A DNA stretch of 51,726 nt, from IMG/VR virus record IMGVR_UViG_3300025000_000140, positions 1-51,726 of that record. One strand, given 5' to 3'. A program made the position numbers and the translations under genes. The notes beneath the pieces are model-generated. The model saw only the letters and a program-made list of their open reading frames with translations. It ran no database searches and was not told where the DNA came from. Shown piece by piece: positions 4,583-30,440 of the stretch. Source of the DNA: a virus. The first letter of the stretch is position 1. Every line of letters starts with the position of its first letter.

Positions 4583-5902
4583 CTAAAACTGATGTGAATA
4601 AGATTTTTCTTGAACCGGATACTCGTAACTTGAAAAGTAATCCACAGAAGCCGCATTATGTGAATCTAAATCATTCGATTCATCTAAATCAACATTATTG
4701 TCTTTCCAGCTCATTCTATCCCAATCTCTTATTAAAGCCTTACATCCCCGCGGATCGGCAAACATTCTTCTAATGTCATTTGCGTTCTTCAGTAAAGCGT
4801 TTGTTGCGGCTACTCTATCCCTCACACTAACTGTTGGTTTAATCTTCTTTTCAATTAAAGGCTTAAAACCATCCTTATTCTTAAAGTAATTCTCTATAAT
4901 CTGCCAATCACTAACTGAAGAATTTGATGTTAATTTAGTTCCTGAATAATCACCATAAAAGTATATGATCTTAGGATATGATTCTAATGTCTTTAAATAA
5001 TCGTCTAATATTCCACTCATTTTTATCGTATTCGTATATTGATAGCTTAAAGACTTGAACCAGTAAATCAATTCACCTTGTCTTTGCCCTACCGTCCAGG
5101 ACATCGGCTTCTCGGTTGCGTTAAAATCACATGAAACTATAATAGGAAGATGTAAATTTAATCTGTAATCTATTCCTATTTTCTTCAAATTAGTTTCTTC
5201 ATACGCATAATAAGCTCTTTGCCCGCCAGTCTCAAAGGAAGCTAAATACTCTCTTTGATAATCAATTAATCCTAAATCATTCTTTGCTGCCTGAATCTGT
5301 AAAGGGCTTAATATCTCCTCTGAAGTCCAATGAAATGATTTCCATCTTTCGGGTTCTGTCTTTTCTCTTAAGAACTCATCGTAAAAGTGATTCTTTCCAA
5401 GTGGTCTCCCCTCCAAGATTGCCTCACCACCTGTATCATTCAAAATAGGCTGTAATGTCTGCGTTAAAAACTTCCCATCTACCTTCTGATACTCTGTTAC
5501 TCCGCATCCATCCCACCTTATGCCCTCAATCCTCTGAAACTCTTCCAAACCCACAACAACAATCGTATTATTCCCGCTAACCTTTACACTCAACTCACTC
5601 TCTTTAATGTCCTTTACAGGGTTTACAATAGCCCATTTGGGAATTAAAGCCTTTACATCATCCCAAAAGATTTCCTTCGCCTGAACCCTCGTTGGCGCAC
5701 CTAAGAAGTATCTTTTCCCCTTATGCCCGGTATTCAAAAGATTATCTATCATCCTTCGTTTCATTCGCTCCGTCTTATATGAACGCCTGCCCGCAGCTAC
5801 CACCTTAAACTGATGCTTGTCTGAATGAAATAAATTCCTTTGAACCGGGTGCTCCATTACCTTATCCGGTAATTGAAACCACCTGTCAGTTAATAAATAC
5901 AT
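4583..5902 (-). CDS. terL: Terminase large subunit
   Basis: 439 aa, normal length for TerL. The N-terminal ATPase has a Walker A-like loop AGRRSYKT at residues 37-44 and a Walker B-like stretch ending CGVTEYQ. The usual acidic pair is TE here. The C-terminal RNase H-like nuclease is suggested by Asp in VSCDFNA, Asp in FYGDYSG and the late SHNAASVDYF segment. It packages DNA into the prohead together with the small subunit. Start ATG at 5902 is preceded by GGGGGATC. Gene order with the 6454-6921 and portal genes supports the call. Confidence 0.88.
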   Translation of the reverse strand: MYLLTDRWFQLPDKVMEHPVQRNLFHSDKHQFKVVAAGRRSYKTERMKRRMIDNLLNTGHKGKRYFLGAPTRVQAKEIFWDDVKALIPKWAIVNPVKDIKESELSVKVSGNNTIVVVGLEEFQRIEGIRWDGCGVTEYQKVDGKFLTQTLQPILNDTGGEAILEGRPLGKNHFYDEFLREKTEPERWKSFHWTSEEILSPLQIQAAKNDLGLIDYQREYLASFETGGQRAYYAYEETNLKKIGIDYRLNLHLPIIVSCDFNATEKPMSWTVGQRQGELIYWFKSLSYQYTNTIKMSGILDDYLKTLESYPKIIYFYGDYSGTKLTSNSSVSDWQIIENYFKNKDGFKPLIEKKIKPTVSVRDRVAATNALLKNANDIRRMFADPRGCKALIRDWDRMSWKDNNVDLDESNDLDSHNAASVDYFSSYEYPVQEKSYSHQF

Positions 5903-5926
5903 GATCCCCCATTAAATCAAAGAACA

Positions 5927-6058
5927 TTAGTTCAACACAAAGTAAAAGAAATGCTTATTTTCATCAGTCCTTAAATGTAACTCAAACTTGTTGTTATATT
6001 TCTTAATCAACCAACTGAAATCAAAATCTAACATATCTATTACCCAATCCTCTATCAT
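5927..6058 (-). CDS. 43-aa unknown protein between terminase genes
   Basis: ATG at 6058 has AGGGG six to seven bases upstream (AAAAGGGGTTTGAG). The product is Asp/Phe/Lys-rich with no recognised family. It ends 24 bp before the large terminase start and is likely in the same transcript. Small size limits confidence. Confidence 0.45.
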   Translation of the reverse strand: MIEDWVIDMLDFDFSWLIKKYNNKFELHLRTDENKHFFYFVLN

Positions 6059-6453
6059 CTCAAACCCCTTTTGTATAGCCAAAACCTGTGAGAGGGATAG
6101 GGCGCTGTGCCAGTTTGAGATTTCCCCTCATAGGGGGTGGCTGTTAATCCTTTTATGTATAGGATTTTAATATTATTAAGTTGTTTAATTATATACATTT
6201 ATAGACTTTTAATCGTTATGCGCAAGGAATGCGCAAGGAATACGCAAGCATTAACCTGTATTTTAGTGATGATCTGATTATCTATTCTTTTAATCTGTGC
6301 TATTTTAAGACTTTTCACATTTACTCTTTTATATTTATTTTTGTGAAGGAAAAACGAATATCATATCTATTTATTGTTAGTAGTATTATTTGCCTGTTAC
6401 ATATCTATTATTATAGATGCCTATCATATCATCACATGACCGTCACATAAGAT
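6059..6453. other. Non-coding region between terminase genes; possible packaging or protein-binding site
   Basis: About 395 bp without a convincing gene. It holds a short hairpin (CCCCT-CAT-AGGGG, 6124-6136), a GC-richer stretch at 6090-6140, and three tandem 11-bp repeats at 6219-6251. Non-coding DNA next to terminase genes often holds the pac or cos site, and protein-binding repeats are common in such sites. No direct evidence of cleavage is visible. Confidence 0.4.
6219..6251 (+). repeat. Three tandem 11-bp repeats (TGCGCAAGGAA type)
   Basis: Copies are TGCGCAAGGAA (6219-6229), TGCGCAAGGAA (6230-6240) and TACGCAAGCAT (6241-6251). The 11-bp period is close to one DNA helical turn. An 18-bp stretch, 6231-6248, occurs as an exact inverted copy at 11715-11732 upstream of the integrase, so the two places probably bind the same protein. 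Confidence 0.75.
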
Positions 6454-6921
6454 TTAACTATTGCCTTTAATGACTTGCTTTGCTTGTGTCTTTAAGCTTT
6501 GAATTTCTTCTTGGTTTAATCCTGTTTCGCCTGGTTCACGATCCCTCATACCGAATTGCTTACCTAAGAAGATAACGCCTGCCGGATTACCCTTGGCAGT
6601 TGTTATTGCGTCTGCTATCTTAACATATTGCGTCTCTTTACATAGTTCTAATACTTGTGCAAAGTAATCATTCTTATGTGCAAACTCACTTATTCGTTGA
6701 TATGTGAAACCGTTTAATACTGCAAACTTCTTTAATAATAAGTTGCCGTTATTCTCGAATGCTTGCTGGTTAGTCTTTCCGTTTAAGTTAAGTCCAAACC
6801 ATTCCAGCATGTCAAGTGCTAACTTTTCTATAAATTCTTTAGTATATTTTTTAGGGCGTCCCACAATGCGTTTAACTTCTTGCTCTGTTCTCATGGGTAT
6901 TATTTGCGCTGCTTGTTTCAT
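6454..6921 (-). CDS. terS: Terminase small subunit
   Basis: 155 aa. Basic N-terminus with GRPKKYTKEFIEKLA, a pattern common in phage small terminases and their DNA-binding helices. It then continues helical, with an NPAGVIFLGKQFGMRD segment typical of DNA-packaging proteins of this type. It recognises the packaging site and regulates TerL. Start ATG at 6921 overlaps the stop of the 6918-7094 gene. Separation from terL by the repeat-bearing 395-bp region is notable. Confidence 0.72.
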   Translation of the reverse strand: MKQAAQIIPMRTEQEVKRIVGRPKKYTKEFIEKLALDMLEWFGLNLNGKTNQQAFENNGNLLLKKFAVLNGFTYQRISEFAHKNDYFAQVLELCKETQYVKIADAITTAKGNPAGVIFLGKQFGMRDREPGETGLNQEEIQSLKTQAKQVIKGNS

Positions 6922-7094
6922 ACTTCTTTAATTACTTTATCTTTAATCGGGAACTTTTCTTGACATTCAATACACGTTTCTTCTTTAGATTCCGTTCCAC
7001 ATATTAAGCACGTGTTTTCTTCTCTTAATTCAGGGCTTCCAAGAAAGTAGAACTTCTTTTCTATTATTCGTTCAATTTGGCTAATAGTTAGCAT
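6918..7094 (-). CDS. Small zinc-ribbon-like protein
   Basis: 58 aa with two Cys pairs, CLIC and CIEC, separated by 9 residues. This spacing fits a small zinc-binding knuckle. ATG at 7094 overlaps the end of the 7081-7326 gene, and the stop overlaps the terS start (ATGA). Probable nucleic-acid or protein-binding accessory protein; no family recognised. Confidence 0.55.
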   Translation of the reverse strand: MLTISQIERIIEKKFYFLGSPELREENTCLICGTESKEETCIECQEKFPIKDKVIKEV

Positions 7095-11711: not shown

Positions 11712-11786
11712 TTACTTGCGTATTCCTTGCGCGGTATTTCACGCAAGTAAAAAAAAGAAAGGACGCAAGTAATATGGCGCAAGTAA
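11712..11786 (+). repeat. ACGCAAGTAA repeats upstream of and inside integrase start
   Basis: TTACTTGCGT (11712-11721, inverted), ACGCAAGTAA (11741-11750), ACGCAAGTAA (11763-11772) and GCGCAAGTAA (11777-11786, inside the integrase coding start). Spacing between the direct copies is 22 and 14 bp. Likely integrase or excisionase arm sites; binding there would also block integrase expression (autoregulation). The segment 11715-11732 is an exact inverted copy of 6231-6248. Confidence 0.7.
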
Positions 11787-12835
11787 TCATCTACAAACAG
11801 GCACGTAAGAAGTTTCAAACGATCTATCTCATCATTAATAATAACGGTATTGAACGCTGGGAAAATACCGGATTAAAGTTATACGGCACTGGAAATGATA
11901 AGAACACAATCAAACAAGCTGAGGTTCTGCGGGCTAAAAGAATGATTGAAATTGTTGAAGGGAAATATGATGTTGTTCCGGTGAATTATGATATGTCATT
12001 TGTTGGGTATTATAAAAAGTTAATTGATTCAGTGCCGGAGTATGAACGCCGGTTAGCTTTGTATCAGCACTTACTTGATTTTAGTCCTAATCTAAAATTC
12101 AAAGATGTAAATGAAACCTGGTGGATGAACTTCAAAAAGTATCTTCAAACTAAAAAAAGACCTTACCAACAGAACACAATTCATCTTGCTTTGGTATTTT
12201 TGAAACATTCACTGAAAAGAGCAGTGAGAGAAAATATCATAAATAAAAATCCCTTGCAATTTATAATAGAAAAGAAAACTGAATCAACAGCAGAGTATCT
12301 TACCTTAGAAGAATTACAGTTACTTGAAAAAACTCCGTGTGAAAATGAGAACATAAAAAAGTTCTTCCTATTTGGCTGCTTGCACGGACAGCGAAGGGGC
12401 GATCAGCAAAGAATGACTAAGAAAAATATAGTTGAGGGACATTTAGTATTCTATACTGAAAAAAGTAAATTCAGGAAACTTGCAAAAGTTCCCTTGCATC
12501 CTTCTGCTTACGAATACCTACCGGATTTTTTTAATTTAAAAGATGATGACCTTTTATTTAACCTTCCTTCATGGAGCAGCATTTATCCAAGACTGAAATC
12601 ATGGGTGTGGAACGCTGGCATTCACAAAAAGGTTACGCCTCATACAAGCAGGCATACATACGCTACCTTGCTCCTCACTTACGGTGGTTCACTGGAACAA
12701 GTTAAAGAGTTGTTGCAGCATAGTGATTTTAAGATGACACAAATCTATGCAAAGATGATTGACAAGAAAAAAATAGAAGCGGTCAATAACATTCCTGCTA
12801 TCAGACCGCCGTTGAGGTTAGTTGAAAATCTCTAA
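11774..12835 (+). CDS. int: Tyrosine integrase
   Basis: 353 aa, full length for a phage tyrosine recombinase. The N-terminal SAM-like core-binding domain covers about residues 65-165. The catalytic domain has Arg207 (HGQRRGD), His290-x-x-Arg293 (PHTSRHTYA), His316 (LQHSDF) and Tyr325 (QIYAKM). It inserts and excises the phage genome at attP/attB. No extra helix patch typical of integron integrases is visible, so it is not an IntI. Start ATG overlaps a repeat that may be its own binding site. The 3' end overlaps the convergent 12832 gene. Confidence 0.93.
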   Translation: MAQVIIYKQARKKFQTIYLIINNNGIERWENTGLKLYGTGNDKNTIKQAEVLRAKRMIEIVEGKYDVVPVNYDMSFVGYYKKLIDSVPEYERRLALYQHLLDFSPNLKFKDVNETWWMNFKKYLQTKKRPYQQNTIHLALVFLKHSLKRAVRENIINKNPLQFIIEKKTESTAEYLTLEELQLLEKTPCENENIKKFFLFGCLHGQRRGDQQRMTKKNIVEGHLVFYTEKSKFRKLAKVPLHPSAYEYLPDFFNLKDDDLLFNLPSWSSIYPRLKSWVWNAGIHKKVTPHTSRHTYATLLLTYGGSLEQVKELLQHSDFKMTQIYAKMIDKKKIEAVNNIPAIRPPLRLVENL

Positions 12836-16945: not shown

Positions 16946-17551
16946 ATGATAGTAGCAAATTCAAGTCCTAAAGCAGACCCGGTACCTGCGGGAACGTATG
17001 CTGCAAGGTGCTTTTCAATGGTTCATCTTGGAACAAGAACTGAAAATATTTTAGGTGTAGATAAGGAATTAAATAAGGTTAGAATTGGATGGGAATTGCC
17101 GACTGAATTAAAAGTATTTAAAGAAGAAAATGGCGAACAGCCTTATTCAGTATCTAAAGAGTTCACTTTATCAATGCACGAAAAAGCTAATCTAAGAAAA
17201 TTCTTAGAATCATGGAGAGGAAAAGGCTTTACTGATGATGAAGCTAAGGCACTTGATATTACGGCACTTCTTGGCAAGCCATGTATGCTTTCAGTAATAC
17301 ATAAAACAACCAAGCAAGGCAATACCTATGCTGAAATAAGCAGTGTTTCAGCTTTACCTAAGGGAATGACCTGCCCTGATCTGATTAATCCTATTACTGA
17401 ATTTACCTTTACTCCGTTTGATCAAGAAACATTTAATAAACTGCCTGATTGGTTAAAGGATAAGATTAAGTCTTCAAAAGAATACAGGGAGATAAGCGAA
17501 CCGGCTCATGTTGAAGATAACAGTAAAGACGAAGATGAGCCTCCTTTTTAA
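16946..17551 (+). CDS. Candidate single-stranded-DNA-binding protein
   Basis: 201 aa. The N-terminal 150 residues are beta-rich (OB-fold-like pattern) and the C-terminus is an acidic tail ending DEDEPPF. An acidic tail ending in Pro-Phe is the hallmark of SSB proteins, used to recruit partners. It sits directly after Gp157, its usual neighbour. No SSB family motif in the core was recognised, so the call rests on tail and context. A second SSB-like tail lies in another frame just after it (see findings). Confidence 0.55.
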   Translation: MIVANSSPKADPVPAGTYAARCFSMVHLGTRTENILGVDKELNKVRIGWELPTELKVFKEENGEQPYSVSKEFTLSMHEKANLRKFLESWRGKGFTDDEAKALDITALLGKPCMLSVIHKTTKQGNTYAEISSVSALPKGMTCPDLINPITEFTFTPFDQETFNKLPDWLKDKIKSSKEYREISEPAHVEDNSKDEDEPPF

Positions 17552-17937: not shown

Positions 17938-17969
17938 GAACAACTACTGTAGCGGTTTAAGCTGCTGCG
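17938..17969 (+). repeat. Isolated attC-like left arm
   Basis: AACTACTGTAGCGGTTTAAGCTGCTGCG resembles the left arms at 28139 and 28848 (ATTGCGGTTAAGCTGCTG). No clear partner arm was found within 200 bp. It may be the remnant of an attC-like element, placed just after a gene end as in the 27-30 kb array. Confidence 0.45.
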
Positions 17970-17994
17970 TGAATAATTGAAAGGAAAATACATA

Positions 17995-18153
17995 ATGACA
18001 AAACCAGAAAAAGAAATTATTAAAATATTAAAAAAACATTCTATACCAGGTGGACAATGTTGGAAGCCATTTTTAATGGAAGAAGATTACCAAAAAATTG
18101 CTACGGAAATTAGCAGTCAACTTGGTTTAACCCGCACCGGCATTGATAAATAA
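17995..18153 (+). CDS. 52-aa unknown protein
   Basis: ATG at 17995 with AAAGGAAAA upstream. Helical, charged, with a Pro/Gly/Cys/Trp central turn. No family recognised. It sits directly after the isolated attC-like arm. Confidence 0.45.
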   Translation: MTKPEKEIIKILKKHSIPGGQCWKPFLMEEDYQKIATEISSQLGLTRTGIDK

Positions 18154-18174
18154 ATTTAATTGGAAGTAAAAAAA

Positions 18175-18411
18175 ATGGAAGAACAGAAAAACAAAAACAG
18201 CGAGACACCGCAAGGTGTCGGCGTTGAAACCGAAGTTATAAATTTTTTGGCGGGAGATGTAGTAGATACATATTTTGGCTGGGCTGGGCATATTACTTTG
18301 ATTGATGAGAGCCTATTTAAATTCGGACAAGGTATCTACATAATTAGATTAAGCGATCAGCATTGCTTTTGTATCGGGCCTGGTGACGTAATTAGCCAAA
18401 AAGATTTGTAA
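18175..18411 (+). CDS. Small unknown protein
   Basis: 78 aa. ATG at 18175 with GGAAG upstream; the in-frame TTG at 18160 overlaps that site. Hydrophilic N-terminus, then a beta-rich part. Function unknown. The next 145 bp hold a low-complexity frame (18438 onward) that I do not count as a gene. Confidence 0.5.
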   Translation: MEEQKNKNSETPQGVGVETEVINFLAGDVVDTYFGWAGHITLIDESLFKFGQGIYIIRLSDQHCFCIGPGDVISQKDL

Positions 18412-23624: not shown

Positions 23625-24144
23625 GTTTGAACCGCTTGTTACGCCAAAACTTTTGGTAAAGCCCATTACTCTTAAACTTGCAAATAAATTTGTAACGGAA
23701 CATCACAGACATCACGGAACTGTGGTTGGCTATAAGTTTGCAATCGGTTGTTATACTAACGATAATTTGCTTGGTATAGCAATAGTGGGCAGACCCATAA
23801 GTCGAAGATTAGATAATGGCTTGACAGCGGAAGTAACACGCTTATGCACAAATGGGACAAAAAATGTTGCCAGCAAACTCTACTCAGCTTGCTGGCGCAT
23901 TGCTAAGGAAATGGGTTATAAAAAAATAATAACATATATACTTGCAAGCGAAACGGGTATTAGTTTGAAAGCAAGCGGGTGGGAGTGTGAAGATGAAAAG
24001 TGCGGTGGGCTTGCCTGGAATAGCGGGAAAGGAATTGTGAGAACGGATATAGTTACTGATTTATTTGGAACTAAAAAAAAATATCCAAATGAGTATAAGA
24101 GACGATACATAAAACAATTATCAAGAGATTGCACAAAAATATAA
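23518..24144 (+). CDS. XF1762-like GNAT-type acetyltransferase
   Basis: Up to 208 aa. The conserved part begins near residue 45 (ITLKLANKFVTEHHRHHG...) and includes LGIAIVGRP, EVTRLCTNGTKN and ASKLYSACWRIAKEMGYKKIITYIL, the pattern of the XF1762 family, which has a GNAT-type acetyltransferase fold. Target unknown. The true start is uncertain because 107 nt overlap the previous gene; ATG 23518 or 23536, or a non-ATG start near 23600, are possible. Confidence 0.65.
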   Translation: MDTGYLMQAVLVTIYHWVGNTSNGNRRKVNPILSDKFEPLVTPKLLVKPITLKLANKFVTEHHRHHGTVVGYKFAIGCYTNDNLLGIAIVGRPISRRLDNGLTAEVTRLCTNGTKNVASKLYSACWRIAKEMGYKKIITYILASETGISLKASGWECEDEKCGGLAWNSGKGIVRTDIVTDLFGTKKKYPNEYKRRYIKQLSRDCTKI

Positions 24145-26928: not shown

Positions 26929-27073
26929 AAACGTCAACACCGCAACGGTATATATCCGAGATAAAGATTTAGAGAAGTGGAAAGAGATTGTTAATAAAAG
27001 TGATTTTGTAAGCTGGTGCTTGAATAAGAAGTTACCGGAGTATAAGAAGAAACAATCTTTGAGGGAGAAATGA
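26921..27073 (+). CDS. 50-aa ribbon-helix-helix-like protein
   Basis: ATG at 26921 overlaps the preceding gene, and the stop overlaps the next start (ATGA). Pattern TATVYIRDKDLEKWKEIV followed by SDFVSWCL resembles a ribbon-helix-helix DNA-binding protein (one strand, two helices). Would bind DNA as a dimer. Not proven. Confidence 0.5.
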   Translation: MAKNVNTATVYIRDKDLEKWKEIVNKSDFVSWCLNKKLPEYKKKQSLREK

Positions 27074-27408
27074 CACAACAGGAAATAATCATAATAAAAC
27101 TTGATGAACTCAGGTTGCAGCTAAAGGAAGAAAATAGACCAAGTGCCACAAAGATATGCCAAGAAGCTATTGACTACCTTAGCAGTCAACCGCAGGATAA
27201 AATTGCGGACGGGTGGAAAGATGCGAAGAAAGACCCTCCCGAATTATCAACAGCTATGGATAAAATGCTAAAAGAAATTGAGGAATATTTTGACGCACCA
27301 AACTATAAGAATAACGTTGTTAATTATAAATCATTTTATGATGGCGCATACCATTACTTAAAGACATTAGAAAATATTTTAATTATGAAAAGCAAGTTGT
27401 CAAACTAA
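27070..27408 (+). CDS. Unknown protein before first attC-like element
   Basis: 112 aa, helical; contains LSSQPQDKIADGWKDAKKDPPE. The KIA segment is similar to LEPQVMQKIAE in the 28202 and 28910 products. Its TAA stop lies in the left box (CTAAC) of the first attC-like element, the pattern of integron cassettes. Function unknown. Confidence 0.5.
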   Translation: MTQQEIIIIKLDELRLQLKEENRPSATKICQEAIDYLSSQPQDKIADGWKDAKKDPPELSTAMDKMLKEIEEYFDAPNYKNNVVNYKSFYDGAYHYLKTLENILIMKSKLSN

Positions 27409-27530
27409 CAGACAAAGCTAAGCCGCAAGCGGCATAAAATATAAATGATGAATGAAAAATTTAATTAACATAATTACAAAACATAAAATTAACAGCCAGC
27501 CCAAGCTTGTCGGCTTGAGCGGTAGTTAGC
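27405..27530. repeat. attC-like element 1
   Basis: Left arm: CTAAC (27405-27409) ... GCTAAGCCG (27417-27425). Right arm: CGGCTTGAGC (27511-27520) ... GTTAG (27525-27529). Arms pair, with one extra G in the right arm. The centre contains TTAATTAACATAATTACAAAA, almost shared with element 2. Length and layout match integron attC sites. Confidence 0.65.
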
Positions 27531-27547
27531 TTTTGAGGAGCGGGCAA

Positions 27548-27769
27548 TTGGATATTAAGAAATTATATGTAATACAAGATGATAAGAAAAAGCTATGGAG
27601 AGACACAGCATCCATAGATGAATCAACTTGCATAAGACGATTTGTGAAGGAGTGGCTATCAGTTTGCCATAGTTTGGATATTTATGACGCAAAACAAGTT
27701 TGGAGAATATTTACGAAAAATGGTTGGGAAATTCTTGAGCTAAATATTGAAGCGACTGAAGAAGCATAA
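27548..27769 (+). CDS. Small unknown protein in cassette-like unit
   Basis: 73 aa from TTG 27548, preceded by GAGGAG seven bases upstream. Starts 18 bp after the right box of element 1 and its stop is inside GCATAAC of element 2. Helical, with VWRIFTKNGWEILELN. No family recognised. Confidence 0.5.
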   Translation: MDIKKLYVIQDDKKKLWRDTASIDESTCIRRFVKEWLSVCHSLDIYDAKQVWRIFTKNGWEILELNIEATEEA

Positions 27770-27886
27770 CATTTATTGCGGTTAAGCTGCCCATAACGGA
27801 AAGAGAATTTTGAGAAACTTAATTAACATAATTTACAAACAAGCCCGAACTAATCTCGCAGTCTTGTTGAGTTGCGAGTTATAAAT
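27764..27886. repeat. attC-like element 2
   Basis: Left box GCATAAC (27764-27770), left arm TTGCGGTTAA (27776-27785). Right arm TTGAGTTGCGA (27867-27877) and box GTTATAA from 27879. The arms pair over 10 bp with G-U pairs and one extra G. The central spacer TTAATTAACATAATTTACAAAC matches element 1 closely. Confidence 0.65.
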
Positions 27887-27911
27887 TTTTGGGCGACATG
27901 GGAGAAAAGTA

Positions 27912-28127
27912 ATGGCAAACTTAATAACAGTTCCAAATTTTGTATTTCAGCAACAATCAGATGATGGCGCTGGTGAACAGCCTATTTGGGTGCAATATTA
28001 TAACGGCACTATCTCTCTTGAGCAAGATGATAATACCGTAAACATCCTCCCCGAAACAATGGACAAACTATTTAAGGAAATCAAAAAACATTTACCAGAG
28101 GCGGAGCATTGGTTGAAGAAACGGTAA
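27912..28127 (+). CDS. Small unknown protein in cassette-like unit
   Basis: 71 aa from ATG 27912 with GGGAGAAAA upstream. Beta N-terminus (VPNFVFQQQ, PIWVQYYNG) and a helical acidic end. The stop is 12 bp before the next attC-like box. No family. Confidence 0.5.
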   Translation: MANLITVPNFVFQQQSDDGAGEQPIWVQYYNGTISLEQDDNTVNILPETMDKLFKEIKKHLPEAEHWLKKR

Positions 28128-28138
28128 GCCCAAAAAGA

Positions 28139-28335
28139 TTTATAACATCATTGCGGTTAAGCTGCTGCGAAAGAAATAACAAAACTTAAAGGATGTAGAA
28201 AATGAATTTAGCAAAAAAATTATTAGATCAACACAAACAAAGAATTAAGTTTGACTATAGTGGTGAACTACCGGAATGGGCAATAACTATATGTAAAGAA
28301 AACCTCAGCAGTCTGCTTGAACCGCAAGTTATGCA
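28139..28335. repeat. attC-like element 3 (right arm inside a coding region)
   Basis: Left arm TTATAAC...TTGCGGTTAAGCTGC (28140-28164). The matching right arm is GCTTGAACCGCAAGTTATGC (28315-28334), inside the 28202-28486 gene: it pairs with the left arm and carries one extra G (TTGAACC vs GGTTAA). The box GTTATGC is at 28328-28334. Total length near 195 bp, longer than most attC sites. The same right arm occurs in element 5. Confidence 0.5.
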
Positions 28336-28486
28336 GAAAATTGCGGAAGTTGAAATAAACACACTTAAAAATTTGATGTATTACGAAACCATCCCTCTTG
28401 AAGAAAAAGAAAAATTAATAAACATCTTTGAGAAATTTGGGATAAAATTTACAGAAGAAGAAAAACAAATAATGTTTAATGTTTAG
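28202..28486 (+). CDS. Unknown protein spanning attC-like arm
   Basis: 94 aa. AAAGGATG leader and ATG 28202. LEPQVMQKIAE near residues 39-49 is encoded by a 45-bp stretch that is nearly identical in 28910-29224 (2 mismatches). The rest of the two proteins differs, so they look like chimeras joined at this point. Translation might also start at ATG 28331, right at the box GTTATGC. Confidence 0.5.
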   Translation: MNLAKKLLDQHKQRIKFDYSGELPEWAITICKENLSSLLEPQVMQKIAEVEINTLKNLMYYETIPLEEKEKLINIFEKFGIKFTEEEKQIMFNV

Positions 28487-28496
28487 CAATTTTTCT

Positions 28497-28623
28497 GCAT
28501 AACGCCTTTGCCGATAAGCTGCTTGCGGATAAAATAGAAAAATTAGGATGAAAAAATTAACTAAATATTACAAACAAAAATAGTCGAGACTGTTAGCAAG
28601 TCAGCTTGATTGGCTTGTTATAC
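28497..28623. repeat. attC-like element 4
   Basis: Left box GCATAAC (28497-28503), arm GCCGATAAGCTGC (28510-28522). Right arm GTCAGCTTGATTGGC (28600-28614), box GTTATAC (28617-28623). The arms pair as GCCGAT-AAGCTG with CAGCTTGATTGGC, leaving one extra G. 127 bp long. Confidence 0.68.
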
Positions 28624-28652
28624 GGATTTTGGCGGACATAGGAAAAACAAAA

Positions 28653-28853
28653 ATGAAAACACTTTATATTGAATTTGACGACCCCAAAACTGGAGAAAGA
28701 ATAGCAGGAGAAAAAGAAGTTGATAACGAAATAATTAACGAACAAATAATTTTAGAGATTGCTGAATTTGCACAAGAAAACGGAATTTGTGGAAGCTACG
28801 CAGCAGAACATTGTTTTTATAAATTTAAGGATGCGAGCCAAAATTCCGCATAA
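28653..28853 (+). CDS. Small unknown protein in cassette-like unit
   Basis: 66 aa from ATG 28653, chosen for TAGGAAAA upstream. N-terminus beta-rich (TLYIEFDDPKTGERIAGEKEV), C-terminus helical with Cys and His. Stop TAA lies in GCATAAC of element 5. No family recognised. Confidence 0.5.
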   Translation: MKTLYIEFDDPKTGERIAGEKEVDNEIINEQIILEIAEFAQENGICGSYAAEHCFYKFKDASQNSA

Positions 28854-29047
28854 CATTTATTGCGGTTAAGCTGCTGGCGACATTTACAAATAATTTAATG
28901 GAGTAAGAAATGGATAGAACAGAAATTTTAATAATAGTGAATGAATATTTATTACTTGATGTAATAAGTGGAGGGGTCACAAGCAATAAAGAACTGGTTA
29001 ATAAAATGGTAGATGAGTTAGCCAGTCAGCTTGAACCGCAAGTTATG
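28848..29047. repeat. attC-like element 5 (right arm inside a coding region)
   Basis: Left box GCATAAC (28848-28854), arm TTGCGGTTAAGCTGC (28860-28874), nearly identical to elements 2 and 3. The right arm CAGCTTGAACCGCAAGTTATGC (29028-29049) lies in the 28910-29224 gene, again with one extra G. Box GTTATGC at 29043-29049. Confidence 0.5.
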
Positions 29048-29224
29048 CAGAAAATTGCGGAAGATGAAAAAAAACTATTAGATATGTTATTCGCATCAAA
29101 AATAGCAGAGATACAAGCACACATAATTTATGGTGAACCATTAGAACAAAGAATGGGTAAAGTTAAGTTAGCTGAAAAGTTGGATGATTTACATAAAAAA
29201 CTTAAAAGCAATTTTTCGGCATAA
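28910..29224 (+). CDS. Unknown protein spanning attC-like arm
   Basis: 104 aa; ATG 28910 with GGAGTAAGAA upstream. Residues near 39-49 (LEPQVMQKIAE) match the 28202 product; the rest differs. Acidic and helical. Its stop TAA is within GCATAAC of element 6. An alternative start is ATG 29045 at the attC-like box. Confidence 0.5.
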   Translation: MDRTEILIIVNEYLLLDVISGGVTSNKELVNKMVDELASQLEPQVMQKIAEDEKKLLDMLFASKIAEIQAHIIYGEPLEQRMGKVKLAEKLDDLHKKLKSNFSA

Positions 29225-29404
29225 CGGCTATGTGGCTAAGGCGCAGCCCCAACAGGGATGTAGCAAGACCACAGATGATAAAAATTAGAAAATAATTTAA
29301 ACAATAGAACAACTTTGAACAAGACAGTAGAACAAAGTAAACAAACTAAAGAACAGCACAAAACCGGTGGAGTGTACGCTGTCGCCTTGAGCCACTTGTT
29401 AGGC
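29219..29404. repeat. attC-like element 6
   Basis: Left box GCATAAC (29219-29225), arm GTGGCTAAGGCG (29231-29242). Right arm CGCCTTGAGCCAC (29383-29395) and box GTTAGGC (29398-29404), an exact GTTRRRY match. The arms pair over 12 bp with one extra G in the right arm. This is the best-formed element; 186 bp with an AT-rich centre. Confidence 0.75.
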
Positions 29405-29428
29405 TACGTTTAGAATTAAGGCACAATT

Positions 29429-30418
29429 ATGAAAATTACAAAACATCTTAAAGTTCCTACTGGAGATATTTTAGTAGTACAAGGTGAAAAAGGTTATTTA
29501 GAAATGCTTTCTCTTGGAGATTATGGTAAAAATATAAACATTAAATGTGATGCAATGGGACTTACAAGAGATATTGAGAAAGTGCAACATACTAACCTTT
29601 TACCTTTAACCGAAAAATGGGTGATAACAATTTCTACGCAATATGGATGTTCGATGGGTTGCAGATTTTGTGATGTTCCAAAAGTTGGTTCTGGTAAAAA
29701 TGCAACATATAACGATTTAATAAAGCAAGTATTGACTGGAATAAAATTACATCCCGAAATTAAAACGACAAAAAGATTAAATATTCACTTTGCTCGAATG
29801 GGCGAACCTACTTGGAATCCCAATGTTTTAGATGCTACAAAATGGCTTAAAACACATATTGATCCAGAATACAAAATACATCCAGTTGTTTCTACGATGA
29901 TGCCAAAACACAATGAATGGCTTAAAACATTTATCCATACTTGGATGCGAATTAAAAATAGATTATTGCAAGGTGAAGCTGGTCTTCAATTAAGTATAAA
30001 TTCCACAAATGAATATGAACGCAATATAATGTTTAATAATAATTCTCTTTCTTTAGATGAAATCGCCAAAATATTAGAAGGAATAATCCCCAATGGAAGA
30101 AAGATAACATTGAACTTTGCGATTGCCAATTATGAAATTGATCCAAGTATTTTATTAAAGTATTTCGATCCAGATGATTACATAATAAAATTAACACCAA
30201 TGCACAAAACCGAAACTGCACTTAAAAATAATATCGAAACTATTGGAGACTATACTGCTTTCTATCCTTATAAGAGATACGAAGAAAATCTTAAGAAGGC
30301 TGGTTATGATGTATTGGTTTTTATTGCTTCTGCTGAAGAAGATTTAGGACGAATAACTTGTGGTAACGCAATTTTATCAGGAACTAAACCACTGATAAGT
30401 TACCAAGAAGTAGCCTAA
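29429..30418 (+). CDS. Radical SAM enzyme, RlmN/Cfr-like
   Basis: 329 aa. Cys74-x3-Cys78-x2-Cys81 (YGCSMGCRFCDVP) binds the 4Fe-4S cluster. A GEP-type motif follows (FARMGEPTWN), and a C-terminal Cys311 (GRITCGNAIL) stands where RlmN/Cfr enzymes carry the Cys that is methylated during catalysis. These enzymes methylate adenines in 23S rRNA or tRNA. It is shorter than RlmN (about 380 aa) and lacks a clear N-terminal helix-hairpin-helix part, so the substrate is uncertain. It sits alone between box GTTAGGC (29398) and GCCTAAC (30413), exactly like a gene cassette. Confidence 0.72.
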   Translation: MKITKHLKVPTGDILVVQGEKGYLEMLSLGDYGKNINIKCDAMGLTRDIEKVQHTNLLPLTEKWVITISTQYGCSMGCRFCDVPKVGSGKNATYNDLIKQVLTGIKLHPEIKTTKRLNIHFARMGEPTWNPNVLDATKWLKTHIDPEYKIHPVVSTMMPKHNEWLKTFIHTWMRIKNRLLQGEAGLQLSINSTNEYERNIMFNNNSLSLDEIAKILEGIIPNGRKITLNFAIANYEIDPSILLKYFDPDDYIIKLTPMHKTETALKNNIETIGDYTAFYPYKRYEENLKKAGYDVLVFIASAEEDLGRITCGNAILSGTKPLISYQEVA

Positions 30419-30440
30419 CTACTGTTTAACCTGCACACCA
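30413..30440 (+). repeat. attC-like left arm 7
   Basis: GCCTAAC at 30413-30419 is a perfect RYYYAAC box and contains the stop of the radical SAM gene. It is followed by TACTGTTTAACCTGC, similar to the left arms of other elements. No right arm was found before the 30465 gene, so the element is probably truncated. Confidence 0.5.

Follow-up and report, generated by a model that had tools for sequence, protein, structure and literature searches.

Clusters of attC sites lacking an integron integrase (CALINs) have already been described in phages (Qi et al. 2023, PMC9892861). Temperate as well as virulent phages carry at least two attC sites without IntI, five of the six phage attC sites tested were used by IntI1 and the cargo includes DNA methyltransferases; in two of these phages the cassettes lie in one direction with the typical bacterial structure, and another phage has attC sites of divergent direction. 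Integrons of Ignavibacteria had been noted earlier in IntegronFinder 2.0 (PMC9024848), and attG insertion of cassettes into genomes is known from Loot et al. (2024), as cited in PMC12901181. The arrays studied here resemble the published phage CALINs in their clustered attC sites, absence of IntI and DNA methyltransferase cargo; they differ in systematic inversion and in start codons located in attC loops, neither of which appears, nor do Ignavibacteria, in the searched text of Qi et al. (PMC9892861). Neither feature was reported in the literature that we searched, most subscription journals being outside its scope.

The DNA analysed, hereafter the window, is a single IMG/VR virus record, 51,726 bases long. 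It contains terminase, tape-measure and head genes, which bears out the initial annotation in placing the locus in a phage. That annotation had described six elements at 27.4–30.4 kb, each formed by a left arm pairing with a right arm, as an integron-like cassette array. When the 51.7 kb were scanned for pairing arms in general, five of the six came among the top six candidates (scores 10–15; maxima of 8.5–12.5 in ten Markov-shuffled windows). A stricter detector, which demanded a pair of extra bases spaced by about 6 nt, scored the same five at 13–18; shuffled sequence reached 12 at most, and the rest of the window 9.5. The sixth element (E2), whose right arm is degenerate, lay outside the five raised by these two methods. 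The covariance model R1, trained on 20 attC sites of Ignavibacteria integrons and nothing else, matched exactly the six elements, all on the minus strand, with E-values from 4.5e-25 to 0.002; its next-best match in the window had E = 0.47, and 1 Mb of other phage loci used as a control gave no match. The elements are real and non-random, and all six came through the covariance check against shuffled sequence on which the annotation had staked its reading. They possess R'' and R' boxes, an L''/L' stem, extrahelical bases and a variable loop, together with the stem sequences and long R'-side spacer common to an Ignavibacteriota sub-type; as far as sequence permits, their membership among integron-type attC sites is settled, and their use by IntI is predicted.

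Details of the earlier description had to be amended. One unpaired base had been reported in a constant place: the place is indeed constant, the right plus-strand arm in every element, but the extrahelical bases are two, about 6 nt apart, a C and an A in attC top-strand terms. The elements had also been placed between small genes, whereas elements 3 and 5 have their right arms within ORFs 28202–28486 and 28910–29224, so that these two elements are about 195–200 bp long. With six attC sites within 2 kb and no IntI, the region is, on its sequence features, a phage-borne CALIN. Of the two components of a complete integron, the intI gene is absent from the window record and the attI site has the terminal box at 30410–30419 as its sole candidate. 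The annotation rightly saw no integron integrase in the array's own genome: the best IntI match in the window, the product of 11774–12835, reaches 57.6 bits with TIGR02249 (cut-off 265). No tyrosine recombinase was found in eight phage records with the same type of site, records that are fragmentary and whose missing parts could hold one; an integrase acting on these arrays must therefore come from elsewhere. The features of the window are as follows, with cassette boundaries set by the AA/C crossover rule (the slash marks the crossover).

11774–12835, plus strand: ordinary phage tyrosine integrase, not IntI (Pfam Phage_int_SAM_5 and Phage_integrase)
17949–18135, minus strand: possible decayed attC outside the array (R1 E = 0.47 only); the ORF through the site reads SSQLGL
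27403–27531, minus strand: attC E1 (R1 E = 1.7e-6; detector score 13.0), crossover after TAA, between 27408 and 27409
27409–27769, plus strand: cassette 1, E1 and small gene 27533–27769 with its stop at the crossover; end boxes match poorly
27764–27884, minus strand: attC E2 (R1 E = 0.0019), right arm degenerate and of another attC sub-type
27770–28145, plus strand: cassette 2, E2 and gene 27912–28127; end boxes 6/6, plus 6/7 with bulge
28140–28334, minus strand: attC E3 (R1 E = 1.6e-10), loop holding the start codon of ORF 28202–28486
28146–28502, plus strand: cassette 3, E3 and ORF 28202–28486, which reads SSLLEPQVMQKIAE across the attC arm; end boxes 6/6, plus 7/7 with bulge
28497–28623, minus strand: attC E4 (R1 E = 4.4e-13)
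28503–28853, plus strand: cassette 4, E4 and gene about 28653–28853; end boxes 5/6, plus 7/7 with bulge
28848–29048, minus strand: attC E5 (R1 E = 7.9e-9), loop holding the start codon of ORF 28910–29224
28854–29224, plus strand: cassette 5, E5 and ORF 28910–29224, which reads ASQLEPQVMQKIAE across the attC arm; end boxes 5/6, plus 7/7 with bulge
29219–29404, minus strand: attC E6 (R1 E = 4.5e-25, 116 bits), loop still host-like
29225–30418, plus strand: cassette 6, E6 and RlmN/Cfr-like radical SAM gene 29429–30418; end boxes 6/6
30410–30419, minus strand: terminal crossover box GTAGCCTAAC (as read on the plus strand), attI- or attG-like array end

The origin of this site type was sought among bacteria. 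A search of 84,980 genomes with the right-arm pattern gave 15 loci, for the most part in Ignavibacteria or Ignavibacteriales MAGs; these carry arrays of sites of about 165–230 bp with the same stem sub-types as the phage sites. An integron integrase adjoins the array on one of these contigs (TIGR02249 412 bits, cut-off 265), and IntI above the cut-off was found in seven of the nine MAGs matched by the attC pattern; such sites are present in 27 of the 149 genomes of the class Ignavibacteria. The helix pairs of the 20 host attC sites covary strongly (86 cells with changes on both sides; 0 of 500 shuffles), and the R'-side spacer is longer in host and phage sites than in class 1 integrons (offset 6 vs 3). 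The phage sites therefore share with Ignavibacteriota chromosomal integrons the attC sub-types, the long R'-side spacer, the site length and the extrahelical C and A. Judged from the attC type only, an Ignavibacteriota bacterium is probably the host of the window phage. Contig L254 encodes, at 5212–6177, an Ignavibacteriales integron integrase whose transcription follows the direction of the cassettes. Such co-directional transcription is an arrangement reported for Spirochaetota.

Orientation is where the phage arrays part from those of the host. The R' box of an attC site is where IntI cuts. In class 1 integrons examined with the same detector, the two extra bases lie, in gene sense, on the arm adjoining the gene stop; since they lie on the right plus-strand arm in the window, the attC top strand is there the minus strand and runs against the genes. 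It follows that the left box at the gene stops, which had been taken for R'', is instead the crossover box R', belonging to an attC on the other strand. The usual cassette layout proposed for the locus must also be given up, as the window genes run against their attC sites and two start inside one. The longest ORF before the site lies in the attC sense at 50 of 51 host sites, whereas in the arrays of seven phages the longest ORF is on the strand opposite to attC at all 33 sites; a gene preceding its attC in the same sense is thus found at 0/33 phage sites. The seven are the window, G001 (L108/L120), L332, L367 (= L346), L352, L216 and L201, the relatives having been located by attC patterns and the covariance model, which supports 30 of the 33 sites (the detector alone supports three). 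The count of 33 does not represent independent events, because the phages were sought by this attC type and share its sub-types, and it may be inflated by exclusions made by eye: gene-sense short-attC arrays in some IMG/VR contigs (L303, L305 and similar) and L362, all judged from attC type and gene orientation alone to be probable bacterial integron fragments, and L322, L355 and L306, where gene sense around the site is mixed or unclear.

At 22 of the 33 sites the upstream gene stops at the R' crossover box (TAA/C), and at 24 the next ORF begins inside the attC and continues across the R'' arm. In 16 of these 24 ORFs the frame is such that the R'' box GTT is read as a valine codon, as in SQLEPQV. 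With a stop at the crossover and a start inside the attC, a unit bounded by AA/C would hold one complete gene. Inversion in several phages suggests that they use the bacterial integron machinery in a dialect of their own.

One could also see in these hairpins translational or transcription-terminating structures of the mRNA that resemble attC by descent only. They do stand where genes meet, their loops contain start codons, and one strand is always the coding strand; arm mismatches, on the other hand, show no strand bias, coding-strand G-U being no more favoured than A-C (11 vs 12 cells), so that the sequence does not tell which strand folds. A search of Rfam gave no match for the window elements, and like host attC sites they retain the extrahelical bases and the crossover boxes. 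A local mRNA hairpin would have no use for the matched cassette ends described below, and we regard a purely RNA-level function as very unlikely.

The boxes at either end of an integron cassette form a pair, whereas a single attC of an array combines boxes from two adjacent cassettes. In host and phage arrays alike, the boxes at cassette ends match far better than re-paired boxes: 5.61 vs 3.18 in shuffles for the hosts and 4.88 of 6 vs 2.77 for the phages, with 0 of 2000 shuffles reaching the observed value in either case. They also match better than the boxes of the same attC. Host ends match over about 10–11 nt; in phages the agreement continues to about 17 nt, a single base bulging out after the ninth, and this bulged extension (4.16 of 7 vs 2.18 shuffled; 0 of 2000) is absent from the hosts, a further difference from the Ignavibacteriota integrons beside gene sense and the presence of IntI in the genome. 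Within the window the start box of a cassette matches its own R'' box in five of six cases, which upholds the initial reading of the units as gene cassettes. The last unit is closed by a further, seventh box, GTAGCCTAAC, whose end lies at 30419 and which agrees with the right box of E6, GTTAGGCTAC, over 10 nt. Such matching is a hallmark of IntI-type assembly. A stretch of G001 (L120, 12089–12219) is 94% identical over 128 bp to L332 5891–6021, the shared stretch being exactly one attC between unrelated flanks; E4 is 73% identical to an attC of G001 across its whole length. The matched ends and the sharing of a single attC are indirect evidence that units move. Terminase and exonuclease searches for a near-identical phage with this region returned no informative sister phage. 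The terminase of L299 (IMGVR_UViG_3300025010_000730, 18.5 kb) is 100% identical to that of the window over 327 residues, and L299 is probably the window phage in another assembly.

Part of the array may be fossil, because the ends of cassette 1 match poorly and E2 is degenerate. The left arm of E2 is identical to that of E5 over 27 nt, and E2 is probably a fusion of two attC sub-types. Extended to the whole array, this would mean that a host integron fragment entered a phage operon in antisense long ago, that its genes decayed while phage ORFs grew over the attC remnants, and that nothing moves in the phages today. The chimeric look of E2, possible relics at 17949–18135 and 23627–23645 and the host-like loop of E6 (116 bits) agree with such a history. 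It would leave unexplained why phage cassette ends 140–1000 bp apart match and extend beyond the host length with a bulge, why paired stems are intact in most attC sites of several phages and why Mom-like, Dam-like and DNA methylase genes, all from known families, share the reading frame of an attC arm; a wholly fossil array therefore appears unlikely.

The locus might instead be an ordinary CALIN of the kind described by Qi et al. (2023), inverted once in an ancestor and then inherited, with nothing special in the overlap of genes and attC. Divergent attC directions within one published phage and the attC sub-types common to the present phages would fit; the inversion of all seven records, whose sites are each accompanied by different genes, the phage-specific bulged extension and the structural genes from different families make a single inherited inversion very unlikely.

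Some observations concern sites outside the array. The possible decayed attC at 17949–18135 lies about 400 bp past gene 16946–17551, near the position of the array of G001; it is a likelier relic than the neighbouring, weaker hairpin at 18115–18241, which was considered as a seventh attC and dropped as the covariance model gave it no support. At 23627–23645 a single arm resembling attC R'' stands just before a gene similar to the Mom-like gene of L367, which is there a full cassette with an attC at 6873–7058. Gene 27070–27408 contains an apparent degenerate attC arm at 27183–27215 (SSQPQDKIA), so that it may be an older cassette. Six IMG/VR 'viral' contigs (L303, L305, L310, L312, L353 and L362) carry attC arrays of another type or in gene sense and look like bacterial integron pieces classed as viral. 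A Mu-like phage contig (L076, 7670–9251) has several attC-like sites of a different type, in gene sense.

The radical SAM gene 29429–30418 belongs to PHROG 24834 (E = 1.2e-123); its RlmN match (E = 1.9e-11) is below the cut-off. Its relatives in 60 other phage loci have no attC around them and no shared neighbourhood, which indicates a common phage gene packed as a cassette in the window and means that these 60 loci provide no empty site. Among the products of the other phage cassettes are a Mom-like protein, a Dam-like methylase and two N6/N4 DNA methylases, the rest being small unknown proteins; DNA-modification cargo would fit an anti-restriction role. Several of the related records also have portal, major head, Gam-like and Sak4-like genes and are clearly phage, their structural genes falling in different families.

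Taking these results together, we consider it likely that the window phage carries a six-attC CALIN of Ignavibacteriota type whose reverse-sense, self-contained cassettes are served in trans by a host IntI. We infer that recombination does take place, with the host enzyme as its agent. Made in stress or infection, host IntI would act on the folded phage site. The mobile unit, on the coding strand, would extend from the C of one TAA/C box to the TAA of the next and comprise the attC (R', L', loop, L'', R'') followed by the remainder of the gene. Translation would start in the attC loop (as predicted for two window cassettes and most other phage attC sites), proceed through the R'' arm and usually end with TAA at the crossover, making a self-contained unit of opposite sense to its attC. 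Insertion at G/TTA on the non-coding strand, that is TAA/C on the coding strand, would take place directly behind a stop codon, leaving the neighbouring phage gene intact and bringing the newcomer into the operon in sense if it is reversed with respect to its attC. Such a mode of insertion would account for the reversed cassettes of phages and might be the selective reason for the inversion. As cited in PMC12901181, attG insertion offers a possible route for phage cassettes into non-integron targets; inverted cassettes at the stop codons of phage operons, as proposed here, would go beyond it.

More tentatively, and with somewhat less confidence than would make it probable, we propose that phages of Ignavibacteriota keep their own cassette dialect: reverse-sense, nearly all-coding units with a start in the attC loop, a stop at the crossover and extended, bulged ends. 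Such units might circulate among phages by means of a borrowed host integrase, target operon stop codons and graft N-terminal peptides onto proteins, several of which are DNA-modification enzymes that may counter restriction. As host IntI, host attC and phage attC sites are all identified, a direct assay is feasible. The origin of new cassettes becomes testable in a system where the gene is fused to its attC, as does the idea that integrons are of use to phages and not to bacterial defence alone. Our results suggest that phages are not merely accidental carriers of cassettes and may own an adapted cassette pool powered by the integrase of the infected cell.
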